Below are positions 3,311 to 54,564 of a stretch of DNA of 64,000 nt, one piece after another. A program made the position numbers and the translations under genes. The notes below the pieces were generated by a model. It ran no database searches and was not told the DNA's origin. It saw nothing but the letters and a program-made list of their open reading frames with translations. The stretch covers positions 186,001 to 250,000 of the forward strand of contig CP053169.1 of the NCBI GenBank assembly GCA_014607495.2, read 5' to 3'. Every line of letters starts with the position of its first letter. Positions within the stretch are counted from its first letter, which is position 1. Source of the stretch: Carposina sasakii. Lineage: Eukaryota > Arthropoda > Insecta > Lepidoptera > Carposinidae.

Positions 3311-4085
3311 CATTTGACCGCCATCGTGCCTGCGGCCTCGGGTGGTACATGTTTGACTAGAAAGTGCCTATTCACTCTAGCTTTGAAGAGACCAATGTTG
3401 TAGTGCTCAGGAAATACATCGGCATGAAGTGCATTCTACTCCTTAGTCGTTCTCATTACAAACAAGTTAGCATAACGTTTGGTGCGGATGGGTGGGATAT
3501 CAACAACATAAGGGTGATACGCTAGTCTGCGTCTAGTATCCCGATGGTGAAAAGGAGCTGGTGGAACTGTATTGTGAAGTTCCCACGCACACTCTCCAAA
3601 GTGTATCTTGTAAAACACTGACAAGGCAGCAATTTTACGGCGGTGAGTCAGGTCCTGGAGTTTCGAATTTGCTACGGTTACATCTCCAATAAGTTTTATT
3701 GCCCGTTTTTCCACCGAGTCCAGTGCGGCTAGCTGGTATTTAGCTGATCCATCCCAAAGGTGGCAACAGTACTCCATACAAGGGCGAATTTGCGCTTTAT
3801 ATAGTGCCAATAGTTGCTGTGGAGTAAAATATCGCCTAACCTTGGATAGGACGCCTAGTTTTTTAGCTGAGATTTTTGCTATGGACTCGATGTACTTGCC
3901 AAAATTTGACGTTGTTGATATATCCAGGCCTAAGAGTTGAAGATGGTCAGTCGTTGCCAAGGACACACCCTGGAAAGTCGGAATCAGGTCGGTTTTTACG
4001 TGAACGAGTAACAAACATCCATGCATGCATACTCACAAACTTTGGCGTTTAGTAGGATAAGTTGGGACTCTGTAAGGGGGTGAAT
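3290..4085 (-). mobile_element. non-LTR retrotransposon (LINE) 3' end, C-terminal part of reverse transcriptase ORF, broken
   Basis: Open for 196 codons (3436-4026). Motifs typical of the C-terminal region of LINE polymerases: LGLDIS, KISAKKLGVLSKVRRYFTP, LALYKAQIRPCMEYCCHLWDG and LDSVEKRAIKLIGD. After an in-frame TAG at 3436-3438 the same frame continues to about 3293 (FPEHYNIGLFKARV) until TAA, so the stop is a nonsense mutation. Upstream of 4026 the frame shifts. The catalytic FADD box region is missing: a 5'-truncated dead copy. Confidence 0.8.
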
Positions 4086-15469: not shown

Positions 15470-17290
15470 CCGATATCCTACTTATATTGCAAATGTGAAT
15501 GTTCGTGAACTACATAATACCTTTAGGTAACGTAAATAAATGTGGGGTAGGTATCGAAATATCATCATAAGTATAGGTATTGAGAGCAAGCAATACTAAA
15601 TCGTGTTTATTAAATCATAGCGCATCGCAGCTAGCATACCTATTGGTCAACACACAGCCCGTTATTCCACTGCGTTTTTCATCAGCTTCGGGGAACAGCC
15701 GATGAGTTCCAGCAGAGCTACACAATGCGGCCTTTTAGGCCTGCCGATGTCGAAACTTGGAAAATTGATCAGTCCGAAATTCCGATGCGAATGAAAATGG
15801 AAAAATTCTTGCCGAAAATTAGGCTCCCCCATTCACGTCACGCCTGACAAATTGCGGGAGAAATTTTTAATTTTCATCGGCAAAGTGTTTTGACCCTGAG
15901 CGGAAAGTTTACACTCAGAATGTTGGGAAAGTGTGCTGTCATCCGCGCGGAGAGACTCACGGTCGGGGAGGATCGGGAACGAGATGGGGTTTGCACTATT
16001 TTAAAAATTATTTGTAATTATTATTTATGTGTTATTTTGTCGTAAAACCAATTTTGCAATAAAAAAAAACTAAATTTATAGGTAAACAATGTAAGAATTT
16101 AATTTTCTATTCTGTCAAGTACCTTTAATTGTTCTGACTATTAAAGTTTCTTATAGACTTCTTCTTATATATTACAGTTGTTTATTAAAATTTTTGAAAG
16201 CGTTGGGCCTAACAGAACAAGACCTAGGAAGTGTTGGATGATCTGTGTGAGAAAATATATGCGTGTTCTGGGCGTGGGTATCGAGATGATGGGTAGATGG
16301 AATGGAAAAAGAGACAATAAAAGAGGAAGAAGAAAAGACAGGGCATGAAGAAGATAACTTATCATAAATATGAAAGTGACTTTATCTGTTATATCATAAA
16401 ATAAAATGTAAGGGAAAATGAGTGCGCATTTGTCTTTAATTAAATGCTATATATTCTAAATAGCCATACACACTATACACAAAGACAAAGCCTCACATCG
16501 CGTCGTCTAGCTCAGTGACACTTTTATAGGTCACACTAGCTTTCAGAAACGTTCGTTAAAAAATAAAGTTAATTTTGTCACACATGATAATTTTGATCCA
16601 CCTTTGGGATTAAAATATTTTATACTATATACGAGCCATTGTCCTCGACTACAAAATGTAGCCAATGCCTTTCTCTGTACTCCCAAATATAAGTAGATAA
16701 GTATGCGAAATTTCAAGAAGATAAATTGAGTGCTACCAAACAAACAATCTTAGCTAGGATTGTTATTAAATTTTTGCACGCTTTTGTTTAAACTTTTTTA
16801 TCTTCCATATTTACTGTAGTGTCTTGAGTACAATTCAAATTCAAAATAATTTATTCCACATGAAAGCATTAACTACTTGTTTGTCGATGATCATTTTATA
16901 TGTTACTTTATATGTTCGCACCCCAAAATGAAATAAATATGTAAATAACTTTTCACAAACAATTATATTATCTTTATACTCCTCTATATAAACTATGATA
17001 ATTATTATCTTAAACTGTCCCCCTGTGAGAATCGATCTCATTATTATTCATGTCCTGATTTGAGAGCGTATTGCTCTTAAAGACCGACTTACCTAAGTTT
17101 CGGCGTTCCCGGGCTGTCTGACAACTTGAATGACAAAGTTTGTCCCGTCTCGCGTTTGTGCAATCTTATCCTTATATAACATTCAATGAACGTTCTCACT
17201 AATATTTGGAAGCCTTTGACATTTGTTATGTTTTATTTATAAATAGGTACCTACTGCAGAATCTAACCTACATCCTTCTCCGTACTCTGA
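15470..17290. other. no gene seen
   Basis: 15650-15990 is GC-richer and less repeat-like than its flanks (AGCTTCGGGGAACAGCC) but holds no long frame. The rest is AT-rich. Confidence 0.45.
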
Positions 17291-30062: not shown

Positions 30063-30202
30063 ATAATAAATAAATATTCTAAAACCTTACTACATATTTA
30101 CCAGTGTGTGTTATTTTCCCTATTAAATTTAATCTATTGCACAATTTAGTGCAACAATTAACTATACCAGGTTCATGTGTTTGTTATAGGTATGTAATTT
30201 TA

Positions 30203-30515
30203 CTCTATTGAGGGATCGCCGCCACCAGGCCCCTATACCCTCCGCTGACCCTCGGATCTGCCTACTCATGATCACGAACACAAGACACTACAGTCGCAAC
30301 GAGAAGCTATAAAATAAAAAATTTGGTATTAACATTTTTTATTTTATATTTGATTGAGGGTATAAAATGATTTGCAATACATTGGTTTTAGTTGTTAGTT
30401 AGTTGGTTCGGTAGATAGAACTAAACATGGAAAACTAATCCTGATGATGCCACGGGTGTTGGCGAAACATATGTCGATTAAAATTTTAATTGGTTTTTCG
30501 GATTAGCAGCTATGT
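30203..30515 (+). mobile_element. hammerhead-bearing repeat, locus 1
   Basis: The first about 105 bases (CTCTATTGAGGGATCG onward) match the arms of the element at 53740-54207. After an AT-rich insert the hammerhead-like motif follows, then TTCGGATTAGCAGCTATG, shared with the second locus. The two blocks face opposite ways relative to the second locus's unit, so this copy is also a partial inverted arrangement. No reverse transcriptase is present. Confidence 0.55.
30436..30480 (+). ncRNA. hammerhead-ribozyme-like motif, copy 1
   Basis: Core CTGATGA at 30441-30447 and GAAAC at 30464-30468. Stem II is GCCA/TGGC (30449-30452 with 30460-30463) around a 7-base loop. Stem III is AC/GT (30467-30468 with 30473-30474) around ATAT. 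The cleavage triplet GTC ends at 30475. Stem I is TAATC/GATTA (30436-30440 with 30476-30480), perfectly paired. One oddity: an extra T at 30448 separates the core from stem II, compared with the textbook consensus. Very short stem III is typical of hammerheads carried by Penelope-like retroelements. Activity is not shown. Confidence 0.6.
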
Positions 30516-31285
30516 ATTTATTTAATCTATTGCTGTACATCATTTAGGGTACAACAATCCGATAACTATACCAATATGTAATTTTACTGTTCATGTGAAT
30601 TTGTTATTATAGGTATGTAATTTTACTGTTGGCATAGTATAACCACAAATGAATCAGTGACAAGATGAAACTGTTGATTCGAGTAAACTCATACGAGATT
30701 AACAATAGGAAGACGCTGTCTTCCATTCTCAAGTTCTGAATAGGTCCTAGTGTGGAAGGCAGCGAGTTTACTACACCGAGTGTACGATTTTTTTGTGTTC
30801 ACTTCTTGATAAACTTTTTTTTTTAACCGACCTCAAAAAAAGGAGGAGTCATCATTCGTCTGTATGTATAAATTTTTTTTTTTTTTTTATGTATTTTTTT
30901 TAACCTAGTCCCAATTATAAACATCACTTAGTTCATATAACCACCATTTTCACTTTCAGGATAACAGATATTGTCAGGAGAAATCTTAATGCTTGGTGCT
31001 TTTGTTAGTGTCTCAGGTATATGCTTCAGTATGATCTGAAGCTTGAGACGAATAGTAATGTAAAACGATAAACTACTCCTTGTATTTGATATGAAAAACG
31101 ATAGAAATCAGTATGCGCTAAAAACATAACCGTCAGGATTAACAATAGGAAGTATGACATCCAGTCGAAGAGTTCTAACTATCCTGGATCAAGTCCTCTA
31201 CGTATACTTGTCAATGCTGCTGTGCTATCAATAGAACTCCTTAACGGTTAGGAGTTAGGGGACAGCAATTGGTCGAGGAAACTAT

Positions 31286-35337: not shown

Positions 35338-35795
35338 AATTATAAAATTATTAATAAAGAAATGGAAAAAATTCTTCACCCGAGTGGGAATCGAACCCAC
35401 GACCACTGCAAATGGTGCCAGCCGCTCTAACCACTGAGCTACCGGGTTAATTACTCGGATGACGAATTTTACCATCTCTTTTCTAAATTACATATTGGCA
35501 ACGTTATTTTTCATCCCGATAGCTATACACCAGCTAAATCTCGGCAAACAAAGCTGAATCCCTCAGCACAATGTTTAAAGATGAAACGATCAACCATATC
35601 CTAACGGATTATATTAATGGAGAAGTGTTTTTATAAATTTATCTTAGTCAAGATATTATATATTATAAAATTATTAATAAAGAAATGGAAAAAATTCTTC
35701 ACCCGAGTGGGAATCGAACCCACGACCACTGCAAACCGTGCCAGCTGCTCTAACCACTGAGCTACTAATTATTAAGAATGAAGAATTAAAATGAG
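35338..35795 (-). mobile_element. SINE family 1, two tRNA-like heads in tandem
   Basis: Minus-sense heads at about 35378-35445 and 35698-35765, each with GGGAATCGAACCCACGACCA, are about 320 bases apart. Between them is a full spacer (ACTCGGATGACGAATTTTAC, then TTTTCATCCCGATAGCTATA). Confidence 0.6.
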
Positions 35796-38634: not shown

Positions 38635-41600
38635 ATGGGGACAAAGATGTTGGGAATTTTTGTGTTCTCGCTGTTTGTGGTGTTCGTGTGTGGGGGTAAA
38701 CATGATATTTATTCAGGGTAAGTATATAACAAACTGTTATTAAAAAGGTATTTCATCTTTGTAATATTTACGATTTCATTGATTAACGAAAGCCACGACA
38801 TACACCATCATTTTAGCCATAGCAAGAACACTGCTGGACGTAGAACCCACAATACGAGTATCCTTTCATATAATAATGTAAATTCTAAGAGAATATATTA
38901 TATAATCACGCATTTATCCCTTACGGGGTAGGCAGAGCACCAAGGGCCGATAGAACCACATGGTGCCATTTATGACCAATTTTGAGGGTATAGTTGAGAT
39001 GTACAACTTCGGTTAGTAGTGACAGGTGGTCAGCCCATCGCCTACAAAACACCAAGACCCTCTTGTCCCTCTACTGACTTGTACAGTATACCCGGGAAGA
39101 GAAGCAGCTATAGTATTATACGTTTTTTTTTCACTCCCAGAGCAGCATAGAAGAAAAGAGTCATACATATGTTAAATTGGCTGACGACAGTTTTTATATA
39201 CAGAAGTGTGTATTGTTTATGTCTATGAAAACTGTCGTCAGTCAATTTAACATACTTACACATTTTGATCTGTGTTCCCAGAATGGTGTAGCTAGAACTG
39301 CAGAAACCCCAAAGAATGCCTGCACCCACGTTTAGCAGTGCGGGGACAAAATATAAAAGATCACTGATAAGTCGCCAAGCTGATCGCCTGGATCATCTCT
39401 CATAAAGGCACCAGTTTTCCGACGCCTTCACAAGAACTGCATAAACCTGACATTTCAGCTTCGAGGTCCACGGGCTGAGCCTCCGTGACCGCTCTGACAT
39501 GGAGCTCCTGCACTCTCTGGAGACACAGTACGACCTGGACGTATGGCAGCACGGAGCGGCTGGACAGAGGGATGCCCTGGTGATGGTATCTCCGGAGCAG
39601 AGGGACGGCTTCTTGAGGACATTGGATGATAGTGGAGTGGAGCATTACTTGCATGTTGCTGATGTAGCCAAGTGAGCAGTTTATGTTCATCATCTTTATG
39701 TCCTTATTCTATTATTTTTGGGTTCAGCGCAATATTCGCAGGTTTCGAAAGTCATTTTGCCAAGGATTCGACATTTGTTATTGGTTGAGTTAGCAGTTAA
39801 TGCTGTTAGCAATCCAGAGATGCAGTCTGCTTGTGATCTTACATAACTACCCTTATGTACCATTGCCTAATCTCTACATATATCCGCCGATTATTGGAAG
39901 ATATACTAATGCTAATTGACTATAATGTGTATTTTAAACTCGTAGTAAAATTACCTATAGTTGACAGTTAATAGGCCCTGATTCTGGTGAAGAAATGTGC
40001 GTGACGAATCAATAGTTACTGTTCATGAAGTATGTACCCATATATATTTCAGGACTAGTTTTCAGATACTTATATTTCGGACAGGTATGTCTTTATTGTG
40101 TCTTTATAAAAAAACCGACAAAAAATCTTTAACTTTATTTTGATTCCTATGTGCCGTCTCTTTGGGTTAAAAATGGATACCTACGTATTTACAGAGACCT
40201 GGAAGCACATGATATAGAGATTGCCAACTACAGAAGGAGTAGAAGTGGAAGGATTCTGCCCTTCGAGGACTACCCAAGATTCGCAGAGGTAAATTAAAAC
40301 AAAATACATGCTATTTTGCCTTTTAAGAAATTATTATTATAATTTGTGTATATCTTAACTTTAATAGATTAAAGATAATTTACTTCGATAAGAACCTAAT
40401 ATCAACTTTATTATCGTAAACCTGCTGAGTTGGTAATTTATATATACTTTAAATTCCAAATGTTAGCGAAAATGATAGATTATTAAGTTATTTAAAATTC
40501 CATCTCATCATTTTTTAAAGCACATTTTGTTTACTTTGAATAGTTATGAAAATTAATAAAACTAATGTTAATTTTGATGTTTTCACTTTGCCCGTTTATT
40601 TTTTTTATTCACATATAATAGTTTATTTATAACTAGTGGCCGCCCACGACTTTGTCCACGTGGAAGAGCATTACACCTGTGCGAAGCCGGGACGGGTCCC
40701 TAGTTATATATACCTTCCTCTTGAAACTCAAACTCTAAAAATCTAAAAATGCAGAGGTCGTGTGTTCGATTCCCACCCGGGTGAGGAATTTTTCCATTTC
40801 TTTATTAATAATTTTATAATATATAATATCTTGACTCCATCCATCCAATATCAAATAATATCCAACTCGGCTGGGCAGCGTTCGGGAAACTACGAAGCTT
40901 ATTTGGGTCCCTAGTTATGATATGCCGAGACGTGGTCTCTAACTATGTGCCTCATAAAAAAGCTCAGGATCGCACAGCGAGCGATGGAGAGAGCTATGCT
41001 GGGATCTCTCTGCGTGATCGAACAGAAATGAGGAGATCCGCAGACGTACAAAGATCACCGACATAGCTGAACGGTCCAGCAAGCTGAAGTGGCATGGGAG
41101 GGCACATAGCTCGATGGAGTCGGAAAGTTCGATACACGTATCCCACCCGAGGTGGGGTGACCTGGCCAATTGGATGCAGGCTGCTTCCGACCGGTCGGAA
41201 TTTCTTTATGTCCAATAATTTTATAATGATATAATATCTTGACTAAGATAAAAACACTTCTCCATAATATAATCCGTTAGGATGTGGTTGATCGTTTCAT
41301 CATTAAAACATTGTGCTGAGGGATTCAGCTTTGTTTGCCGAGATTTGGCTTATGTATAGCTATCGGGATGAAAAATAACGTTTCCAATAATGTAATTTCA
41401 AAAAGAGATGGTGAAATTCGTCATCCGAGTAATTGACCCGGTGGCTCAGTGGTGAGAGCGCTGGCACGGAATGCAGAGGTCGTGGGTTCGATTCCCACCC
41501 GGGTGAGGAATTTTTCCATTTCTTTATTAATAATTTTCTAAAAATCGTATCAATACGAGTATCCGTTGCGTAGTTTCAAGAATAAAGCATACATAGGGAC

Positions 41601-44600
41601 AGACAGCGGGAAACGTCAACTTTATAATTATGTAGCGATGAATCCATAATTACTGAATGAATTATTATCAGGTTGATGCATATCTGGAGAGTGTTGCTGC
41701 GCTATATCCGAACCTGGCTACTGTGGAGACAGCTGGACCGAGCTACGAGAACAGAACTATCAAATACTTGAAGGTTATTGAAGGGATTACTTTGGACCCA
41801 GTAGTTCTGCACTGAGACTTTGGTTAAAAAGGGCTATTTATAAACTGACGTTCAGATTTGCTAAGGAAAATATTTTTCCCGTCCAACTTTTTGACGGCCG
41901 ATTGGTGTAGTTGGTAGTGGCCCTGCCTGCGACGCCATAGGTCCTGGGTTCGAATCCCGGTAGGTGCAAACATTGATGTGATGAATATCGATGTTTGTTT
42001 CCGAGTCATGGATGTTTATATACTTATCTATGTATTTATATACCGTTGCTTAGTACCCACGACACAAGACCTTAGGGATCTTAGTGTGGGACTAGGTCAA
42101 TGTGTTGTGAAGTGTGTGAATATTTATTATTATTATTTATAACTTATTAGGTACATATTCTGACTGGAACATTAAAAAATGTATCTAAGTACTTGAATGT
42201 TTCGCAGATATTTAATCATGATTTATCTATACTGCTACTTTGCCCTTTAAATTTATGCTATGTCACACTAGTTACGAGAAATATCAGAGCAATTGTGTAA
42301 TTTTAAAGTAATAAAAAAATCCGTACAACAGCAGTATTATAATTATTTACTCGAAACATAATATTTTAAGTCAAAACCTTGTACAAAATATCATTTCTAC
42401 CATTACCCATAACGTAGAAGCCCTCTTCACAAATTAGACCTTCATTTTGGTTCTTCACGGTAAACCAGTGTTACTGTATAATATGAAAAGGAGACTGATA
42501 TGCAAACCTGTCGACTGCAACTATTATTTCTGCCATAGATTTCCACCTCGAACTTCGAGGAAAGCAACAAGCCCATCTACTTCTTGGACGCCATGATCCA
42601 CGCCCGTGAGTGGGTGACCACTCCTGCCTCTCTGTACGCCATCCATCGACTAGTAGAGGACTTGAGGACAGAAGACCAGGATCTGTTGGAACTCTTCGAC
42701 TGGATCATACTTCCTATTGTTAACCCTGACGGTTATGAGTACACGCATACTGATGTAAGTATATTACTAAGTAATGACGACATAAAATGAGTTGCAAGTT
42801 AAATTAAGAAGTCATTATAGCTATTAAACAGTAAGAGGTTTAATTTAGTCCTTAAATCATCAGATCAAGTCGCTGGATTTAAGAAGTATATGTTATTCTC
42901 TTAAACTAGGTTTCATTTAAATCTCAACATGCAAGCACAATGTTTATATATTTGCAGGAGCGTCTCTGGCGTCGCACCCGCTCCAACAATCCCCCTGAAG
43001 TCGACACCACCTGCCTCGGTGTTGACGCTAACCGTAACTTTGACGTCGCTTTCAACACTGTCGGCGTCTCCTCCAACCCCTGCTCCCAAACGTATCCAGG
43101 AACCTTGGCCTTCTCAGAGCCAGAAACTCAATACGTCAGGGACATACTTCACGAGTACGTGGACAGAATTCAGCTGTACCTGAACATACATAGTCATGGA
43201 AACTATGTGCTGTTCGGATTTGGGAACCACAGGTAATTTATTTTGTCCTGTCATTCTTTTTACTGGATCAACTGGTTTGTTGCAAGCTCTGATTTGGATA
43301 AGCTCACCTTTTGTATATTTTGCAAAATATGCAATATTACAGCATAATATGAAATAGGTATCTAACATTTATTTCAATTTAGATAAGAGTAAAATGATTC
43401 CTTAATGTACCTACTGGATTCTACCATGATGATCTCCGACCGTATTTCGGCCAAGGCGACCAATCTCTACTGAGGTTGGCCAGGTACGCAGGAGATATTA
43501 TAGTACACAAGTGTGTGATGCACTCTGAGATGCACTCTCTATTCCCTCACTCTCATAGTCCGATGGGACGGAAAGCCGACACGACCGGAGAGAGATCTGG
43601 CGCAGGACCAACGGTTTTACTTGCTTTCCGAGGCACGAGCTAAGTGACAATTTTGCAACATTTGTCCGACTTCGATCTACCATATAAAACCTAAGAATCT
43701 TACTCTAAGAATATGCTAATGTGTTATGACGTTCATGAATTTTGAGTACCTTTACCACCATCTCCATTAATACTTAACCTCCAATATCCTCCAGTCTCCC
43801 TGCAAATGGAGCTGCATTACACCTGGTTGGAGCCACCTTGGGTGCAGCCATTGACTCTGCAAAACTTCCTGAAGCTCCGTACTACCTCGTCGGCAACAGT
43901 GCCAACCTTTTGTATGCTACGTCAGGCTCAGCGCAGGATTATGCTCAGGTAGATAGAACTCATGTTGATGTGGGGCTTCCTTCACTAGAGTAGATCAGCT
44001 ACATCTTCTTCCGTGAGAGTCGTAAGAGTCGAGCAAAATTATTACTCGATAAGATAGCAATATTTTCCTGATCATTCACATCTGTACCCGCTATGCTGGA
44101 GGTGGCTATGTTATCTCCTTTATGTTTCTGCAGTTCTAGCTACCTCATGTCGTAAACGCAGCCGTGCGTATATGTATTCCAAAGTTACCCAATTTAACCC
44201 TACGTGACTATTTTAACTAGTTGTACTTATAAAATTATTAATAAAGAAATGGAAAAAGTTTCTCACCCGGGTGGGAATCGAACCCACGACCTCTGCATTC
44301 CGCGTGCCAGCGCTCTCACCACTGAGCCACCGGGTCAATTACTCGGATGACGAATTTTACCATCTCTTTTCTAAATTACATATTGTTGTACTTACTCTAT
44401 TACTTTGGTTACAATCCTACTAATATTATAAATTATGAAGGTTAGTGACAATGTTGATTATCTGGATCTTCATATTTCATTCGAGGCATTGTCTCTTTTA
44501 CGGGGTAAGCAGAGCACCAAGGGTCGATAGGATCACATGGTGCCACTTCTGACCAATTTTGAGGGTATAGTTGAGATGTACAACTTCGGTTAGTAGTGAC

Positions 44601-52850: not shown

Positions 52851-53888
52851 TTATCTCCTCGAAGCCTCAAAGTACAATGTATCCAATTTGGAATTTAGAG
52901 TGGGTTGTTTGAGTTTCTCAAAAGACGCCATGTATAGGAAGACTCGCTGAGTTATTCTAATAGAGGGCTAGGTTGGTTTACGACTTTTATCTTGACTGTA
53001 CTGTTAATAAACCATGCGTCAAGTTACAACCTCGTTATATTTGATAGCAAAATATATTGAATATCAGCCACATTAACTGTGAATATGTAGCTTATACCTA
53101 GTGTTACGGAACGTTGTAGTCAGCCTATAGCAGCGAGCCATTAGCCACTACCTAGCCATTTGCCGTGCCCCTAAGTTACACCCCAAGCCATTCAGCCATT
53201 GCCTTGCCATAAGCTTAGACCTCTTACTGGCCTGTATGAGTAAGCCTTGACGGGGTGGGCGTATGGCCTAGCCATGCCATGCCTGCCTTTATAACCAAGT
53301 GCACGCCGCATTCGTGACTCGATTCCGCCAGCGACAACTAGTCTTGTAATCACTGTCTGATTCTTATTGGAAAATTATAACAAGTCAAGCCTATTGTGGA
53401 CCTTTTATTTACTCGTCGTTACACTAGTTTACAAATTTTTATTAGTAAGGCCCTTAATCTTTTACCAGAAACACAGTCTACTTTGTATTCAAAGATCTTC
53501 TAGAATAAGCCCGTCGTCAAATATTGAGTGGAAGCGACGACTTTTTTGAAAAACGTTTTGCCTCAGAATAAGATTTTGCCATCACTGCTGCAGGAAGGAA
53601 GGAAGCACTGAAGTCGACTGCGAACAAATAGAGCGACGACGACTAATCCTATTTGTTTTATAGATTTACGCTCGTATTCTTTGTGGTTACTTTACCTTAG
53701 AGGCACTCGGGTGAGTGAGAAGTAATCTAGCAGTCTCTTCTCTATTGAGGGATCGCCCACCACCGGGCCCTATACCCTCCGCTGACCCTCGGATCTGCCG
53801 ACTCATGATCACGAATACAAGACACTACAGTCGCAACGAGAAGCCAGTTCCAAGCACCTAGCATCATAAATACAACTAATCCGAAAAC

Positions 53889-53933
53889 CTATCGACATAT
53901 GTTTCGCCAACACCCGTGGCATCATCAGGATTA
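53889..53933 (-). ncRNA. hammerhead-ribozyme-like motif, copy 2
   Basis: Minus strand, identical to copy 1 through both core boxes, stem II, stem III and the GTC triplet. Stem I keeps only three pairs directly after the cleavage site (ATC/GAT) before mismatches. It lies in the left arm of a palindromic element (53740-54207). Confidence 0.5.
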
Positions 53934-53973
53934 GTTTTCCATGTTAATCTACCATGGAAAACCAACTGAAGAG

Positions 53974-54014
53974 TTTTGATGCCACGGGTGTTGGCGAAAC
54001 ATATGCAGGATTAT
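53974..54014 (+). pseudogene. degenerate hammerhead-like motif, copy 3
   Basis: The right arm of the palindrome keeps the stem II block and GAAACATATG, but CTGATGA has become GTTTTGATG and the cleavage triplet GTC has become GCA. It should be inactive. Confidence 0.5.
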
Positions 54015-54564
54015 GTTAGTTCTATCCGAAAACCTAAAATTTTAATTGGTTTTCGGATTAGCAGCTATGTATTTATGGTTGCATGCTAGGTGCTTGGATC
54101 TGGCTTCTCGTTGCGACTGTAGTGTCTTGTGTTCGTGATCATGAGTCGGCAGATCCGAGGGTCAGCGGAGGGTATAGGGCCCGGTGGTGGGCGATCCCTC
54201 AATAGAGATTTGAACTTCCGAATAGTGACGCCTGATACAATTCAATATAGCAGTCTCTTGTTTTCCTTATTATAACATGAGAGATGATTAAAATTTGAGT
54301 CATCGTCTAATGATATCGGGATTAGCCCCACCTGGACAAAAAATTGTTGATTCTCGATTTCTTATTATTTGTATATTCTAACAATGTTTTTCCAAATAGA
54401 AATCCACTTGTTCAGAGGGAGGGTAGGGGAGGGGTCAGTAATAAGCAGTAACCATTCTCGGCCGACCGCACGATCCTCGATTGTTTCTCGATATTACTGT
54501 TTATTGTTATGACCACTATGTAAATCGACTTCACACGAATTGCTTTTAATTTAGTAAAGGAGTA

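Follow-up and report, generated by a model that had tools for sequence, protein, structure and literature searches.

The motif at 30436-30480 (+) of the window, by which we mean the whole stretch of 64,000 nucleotides analysed, is, with high probability, a genuine minimal hammerhead of type I, judging from its letters, its copies and covariance models, and cleavage is predicted after C30475. The repeat that carries it is likely a non-autonomous Penelope-like repeat of a lepidopteran. With reasonable though far from complete confidence, we also consider that this is a minimal type I hammerhead of the Penelope kind, located in a pLTR-like terminal unit of a short retroelement copy devoid of ORFs in a lepidopteran genome. 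This explanation draws on the observed letters, copies, possible pairing, model matches and repeat anatomy.

On re-reading of the sequence, every letter and every part of the motif was found as the first-pass annotation describes it. The core box CTGATGA (30441-30447, +) is followed by an extra T at 30448 (U in the RNA), which also supplies the U of an ATG (30447-30449). Next come the stem II strands GCCA (30449-30452, +) and TGGC (30460-30463, +) with the loop CGGGTGT (30453-30459, +) between them, GAAA (30464-30467, +), C at 30468, the ATAT loop and the cleavage-site triplet GTC (30473-30475, +). CTGATGA, GAAA and GTC are all intact in this copy (copy C), and the core (C3 U4 G5 A6 N7 G8 A9, G12 A13 A14 A15.1, U16.1 H17) is complete and in type I order both here and in copy A described below. 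Stem II does not follow A9 directly, as one U intervenes in copy C. Stem I, first noted as TAATC (30436-30440, +) with GATTA (30476-30480, +), does pair; its limits did not hold, since it can be extended beyond them, the folding suggesting GAAAACTAATC (30430-30440, +) as the longer 5' strand.

Three instances of the pattern CTGANGA...CGAAAC are present in the window, versus a mean of 0.12 in shuffles. Copy A (53883-53939, -) is a hammerhead with an extended stem I; its 35-nt core (53894-53928, -) is identical to the core of copy C, and 55 nt are common to the two copies with zero differences. Because the intact cores are identical, these copies provide no information on covariation. Copy B (53966-54000, +), found by the pattern search, is a broken hammerhead: eight bases, not one, separate CTGAAGA from GCCA, and the GTC of the cleavage site is gone. 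Examined by eye in 53966-54040, the bases of copy B that follow GAAACATATG match, in reverse complement, the sequence upstream of the hammerhead in copy C, as if a template switch had occurred.

Stem II comprises 4 bp. Stem I comprises 5 bp in copy C and 10 of 11 positions in copy A, where the extended stem GAAAACTAATC/GATAGGTTTTC has a mismatch at the fourth position. In the constrained fold of 79 nt of copy C, stem I has three inner and nine outer pairs, together with a 12-nt insertion in its 3' strand; the five inner pairs of the first-pass annotation are an alternative to this three-pair arrangement. Stem III is limited to 2 bp in a monomer; however, ACATATGT (30467-30474, +) is a perfect palindrome, and because it is self-complementary, two RNAs could share a stem III of 8 bp.

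The fold energies below are predictions only, computed in kcal/mol without tertiary contacts. For the copy C core, the hammerhead has -3.5 vs. a minimum of -8.3 as a monomer and -18.8 vs. -24.0 as two strands; for the extended copy A, the values are -9.9 vs. -14.3 and -31.6 vs. -34.0, respectively; and for the 79 nt of copy C, -7.1 vs. -15.1. The hammerhead was the minimum-energy fold in none of the forms computed (copies C and A, monomer and two-strand). The two-strand hammerhead lies well below two monomers (-18.8 vs. -7.0 for copy C and -31.6 vs. -19.8 for copy A), and the gap to the minimum fold narrows per strand on dimerising. The palindrome and this computed gain fit a dimer model.

The chance level was estimated on both strands of 1413 random 64-kb sequences, generated from the window as a first-order Markov chain. 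Under a strict descriptor (at least 4 bp in stem II and 5 bp in stem I) there were 5 matches in total, and under a loose one 48. Given the number of windows scanned, a single motif of this type is uncommon yet not impossible by chance; the case is carried by the second copy with a long stem I of its own, the matches to models of unrelated viral hammerheads and the self-complementary stem III.

Two covariance models were applied to the window, and their E-values are rough according to the tool's own statement. Model R1 was built from 25 sequences, 16 of them from loci found by a bait that contained the GCC/GGC of the window; it reported copy C (34.0 bits, E 1e-7) and copy A (24.9 bits, E 5.4e-5) and nothing else up to E 10. 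The pair counts of R1 (99% of cells paired) were rejected as evidence, the 25 sequences having been chosen for pairing stems. Model R2 was built from ten viral-contig hammerheads that came from an unbaited scan, had equal tail length and had stem I trimmed off; an earlier alignment for it (A2) was dropped, as the stem III ends did not align. We consider R2 the fairer test because no bait derived from the window entered it. It ranked copies A and C at the top (19.0 bits each, E 1.2e-4), followed by three weaker matches (E 0.086, 1.7 and 2.2). The initial assignment of the motif to type I hammerheads, with a stem III of two pairs, is thus backed by a model that contains neither the window sequence nor its stems. 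The match with E 0.086 (15741-15774, +) has an altered core without a real stem II and is probably due to chance.

The search with the Rfam models, which the first-pass annotation named as a check, listed no hammerhead at the gathering threshold in the whole window, in 351 nt, in 56 nt or at copy A; RF00163 gave 10.7 bits (E 4.9) on the 56 nt, short of its gathering score of 34 bits. In 13 viral loci that contain well-paired type I motifs, with and without the extra U, Rfam release 15 at gathering likewise reported no hammerhead, and one of the viral motifs taken alone produced only a type II match (12.5 bits). Because these hammerhead-bearing loci are also unlisted, we judge the Rfam result uninformative here and do not treat a match at that score as defining for the type.

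In IMG/VR, there were 0 matches to the exact 29-nt core and 0 to an arm sequence. A relaxed bait that kept the stem II ends of the window yielded 66 viral stretches (IMG/VR) and at least 118 bacterial ones; among the matches listed, these 184 loci contain 21 motifs with at least 3 stem I pairs, and several of the motifs look like chance. Several hammerheads and a Pistol ribozyme lie within a few kilobases in the viral contigs L031 (799-4404) and L030 (1279-about 4970), and L215 has six hammerhead matches in 4 kb.

The extra T was initially considered "either a variant or a decayed form"; we read it as a variant and not as decay. The IMG/VR scan, in which CCGC/GCGG was prescribed for stem I and any stem II or III was allowed, returned at least 120 stretches. 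Among the matches listed, 66 of 148 distinct motifs have an extra T with stem II pairing after it; 5 have G, 1 has A, 60 have no inserted base, and the other 16 lack a stem II of 3 bp at the offsets tested. (This tally supersedes a smaller one, in which 42 of 92 motifs from 80 of the 120 loci listed had the extra T.) Judging from these sequences, a one-base insertion after A9 seems to be a common natural form, at least for hammerheads with a CCGC/GCGG stem I. Since it is common to 66 of the 148 listed viral-contig motifs, and since one or two inserted bases are allowed in PMC10085705, we take the extra U as a tolerated variant. In PMC3088659, matches mispaired beside the core were discarded unless their activity had been measured.

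The motif was first assigned to a repeat. To correct its extent, it is part of a larger inverted-repeat insertion (insertion 1, about 30205-30519, the limits following from the flanking repeats). Insertion 1 includes an outer antisense arm (30205-30307, -), which shares 94-95% identity with the insertion 2 arms, a middle part and a 3'-truncated sense hammerhead unit. Its left flanking repeat (30127-30204) pairs with the right one (30520-30627); they align with one mismatch and many small gaps, which is odd for a simple target duplication, and could have arisen as a long target duplication or from a tandem repeat of older date. No one-sided tail was seen in insertion 1.

Insertion 2 (53740-54243) consists of head-to-head inverted arms, 98% complementary over 126 nt, a palindromic junction (53931-53965, with 53931-53946 88% complementary to 53950-53965) and a 35-bp extension, or "tail", of the right arm only (54209-54243, +). 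It is flanked by a 16-bp target duplication (53724-53739 and 54244-54259) with 15 of 16 positions identical, and among 2000 random flank pairs, 2 matched this well. Inclusion of the 35-bp extension is required for the 16-bp repeat; no duplication is flush with both inverted-repeat ends of insertion 2. Pseudo-LTR-like (pLTR-like) head-to-head inverted units with a palindromic junction are thus present in insertion 2 and, in part, in insertion 1, and the one-sided tail together with the target duplication is specific to insertion 2. No direct tandem of the hammerhead unit was found at either locus, the units being inverted, and neither inverted-repeat locus contains a recognised ORF. With insertion 1 truncated and copy B broken, the family may be dead here.

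Comparison of 120 Penelope proteins with the window gave no match below E 0.025; these proteins may be distant from insect families. A Penelope reverse transcriptase query in IMG/VR gave 3 stretches that fit the pattern, none of them confirmed, and Pfam identified 0 families in the ten ORFs searched out of the 65 of at least 80 aa in the window. The frame from 54141, a possible start of an ORF whose first codons would lie in the pLTR, stays open through the arm and the tail of insertion 2; 5 candidates shared words with it, none at E 10 or better. The ATG of the hammerhead was considered as the start of a Penelope ORF, as in Anolis, and rejected, since in copy A this frame runs for 37 codons before it closes; a resemblance to Anolis remains. 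No Penelope ORF with reverse transcriptase and GIY-YIG domains having been found, the repeat is therefore at most a non-autonomous derivative.

As for the host, the window contains a LINE reverse-transcriptase fragment (3313-4032, -), closest to lepidopteran proteins. Its part 3439-4032 (-) has 60 database relatives; where an organism is named (29 rows), it is in every case a moth or butterfly, with examples from Cydia, Mythimna, Parnassius, Pararge, Papilio and Ostrinia. The lepidopteran origin proposed from the letters is supported by these relatives. Four Rfam tRNA matches (35376-35448, 35707-35764, 41435-41506 and 44263-44336) are possibly genes or tRNA-derived SINEs.

Descent of the hammerhead-bearing insertions from Penelope is likely. 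The statement that a short stem III marks Penelope-like elements has a literature basis: the minimal type I hammerheads of Penelope elements lack most of helix III and possibly cleave as dimers (PMC7761336), and PMC7229834 refers to "minimal variants". The hammerhead reported here resembles these (Cervera and de la Pena 2014; Lunse et al. 2017, via PMC7229834 and PMC7761336) in its full core, type I order and near absence of helix III, as well as in its position: the published ones, for which dimer action was proposed, are sited in repeats and Penelope-like pLTRs. It differs in that the window has no Penelope ORF and the units are inverted, and perhaps also in the extra U after A9. Penelope-like elements of many animals carry minimal hammerheads, whose in vivo activity and role are "still a mystery" (PMC7761336).

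The anatomy of insertion 2 has a close parallel, although the likeness rests on one insertion. A Penelope insertion of Adineta vaga, as described in PMC3846280, has an inverted pLTR, palindromes at mostly head-to-head junctions, target duplications and a 31-bp tail, optional on one inverted pLTR. Insertion 2 shares with it the head-to-head units, the palindromic junction, the one-sided tail (35 vs. 31 bp) and the target duplication; the Adineta vaga insertions differ in having reverse transcriptase/endonuclease ORFs or captured DNA and duplications of 8-9 bp vs. 16 bp here. In the Anolis Penelope-like element PAc, the ORF opens where stem II begins, and no cleavage was observed in vitro without the element's protein (PMC11167929). 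C3 and G8 precede the ATG there as in our case, where it spans A9, the extra U and the first base of stem II; unlike PAc with its ORF, the frame here is the short one noted above. The type I hammerheads of IMG/VR viral contigs have the same core, often with the extra U before a pairing stem II (66 of 148 motifs listed), but differ in longer stem III hairpins, GC-rich stems and the viral setting; no common descent is claimed.

Several other explanations deserve consideration. The insertions could be a foldback (MITE-like) DNA transposon that captured a hammerhead, in which case the arms would be TIRs bound by a transposase rather than inverted pLTRs. The nearly perfect complementarity of the arms (98% over 126 nt) and the failure to find a Penelope coding remnant in the window agree with such an origin; however, insertion 2 has no target duplication adjoining its arms on both sides, the 16-bp repeat requires the 35-bp extension, and the hammerhead is located in the inner part of both arms, as expected for inverted pLTR units. 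We consider the foldback transposon unlikely.

Even less probable is a non-autonomous metazoan retrozyme, i.e., a tandem repeat with a type I hammerhead spreading through circular RNA. Retrozymes have been reported from many invertebrates including insects (PMC7229834), and the repeat here is likewise short, AT-rich and non-coding with a type I hammerhead; but retrozymes are direct tandem repeats according to the same source, while the units at both loci are inverted, and a stable helix III is reported for those of invertebrates (PMC7761336). We assign an equally low probability to a chance resemblance, or to a repeat in which the hammerhead letters were never part of a working ribozyme. The 5 (strict) and 48 (loose) descriptor matches in 1413 random windows speak for it, as does the fact that copies of one repeat are not independent; against it are the E of 1.2e-4 per copy by R2, a model without the motif or its stems, the palindromic stem III and the long stem I of copy A.

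Returning to the Penelope-derived hammerhead, we can outline how it would operate; the dimer action, the cleavage, the Penelope origin and the role are our interpretation. Two copies of the RNA are probably needed for cutting. The repeat would be transcribed, and two hammerhead units (from two transcripts or from a tandem copy elsewhere) would pair via the palindrome ACAUAUGU. The pairing would create the shared 8-bp stem III, and stem I could form across the pair. Each core would then cut after C17 (C30475), thereby releasing the unit ends of the element RNA. The two loci would be inverted non-autonomous remnants that spread by means of a Penelope reverse transcriptase and GIY-YIG nuclease provided from elsewhere. 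It is tempting to go further and propose lepidopteran foldback mini-Penelopes without ORFs, composed of head-to-head pLTR units only, with a palindromic stem III functional only in dimers, and spread in trans by an autonomous Penelope; we regard this generalisation as speculative and rather doubtful.

The kind of hammerhead reported here is already known (Penelope-type minimal hammerhead); for a lepidopteran family of this kind, no description was found in the open-licence literature. Two practical points concern those who search for hammerheads: viral contigs often have a single base inserted between A9 and stem II (66 of 148 motifs listed), and the 13 viral loci, with or without the extra base, yielded no hammerhead with Rfam at its gathering threshold. 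This family is compact, its core is intact at both loci, its stem III is palindromic and dimerising is predicted to favour the hammerhead; it would be an easy test bed for the dimer model. If true, foldback mini-Penelopes would be a further non-autonomous hammerhead design beside tandem retrozymes.
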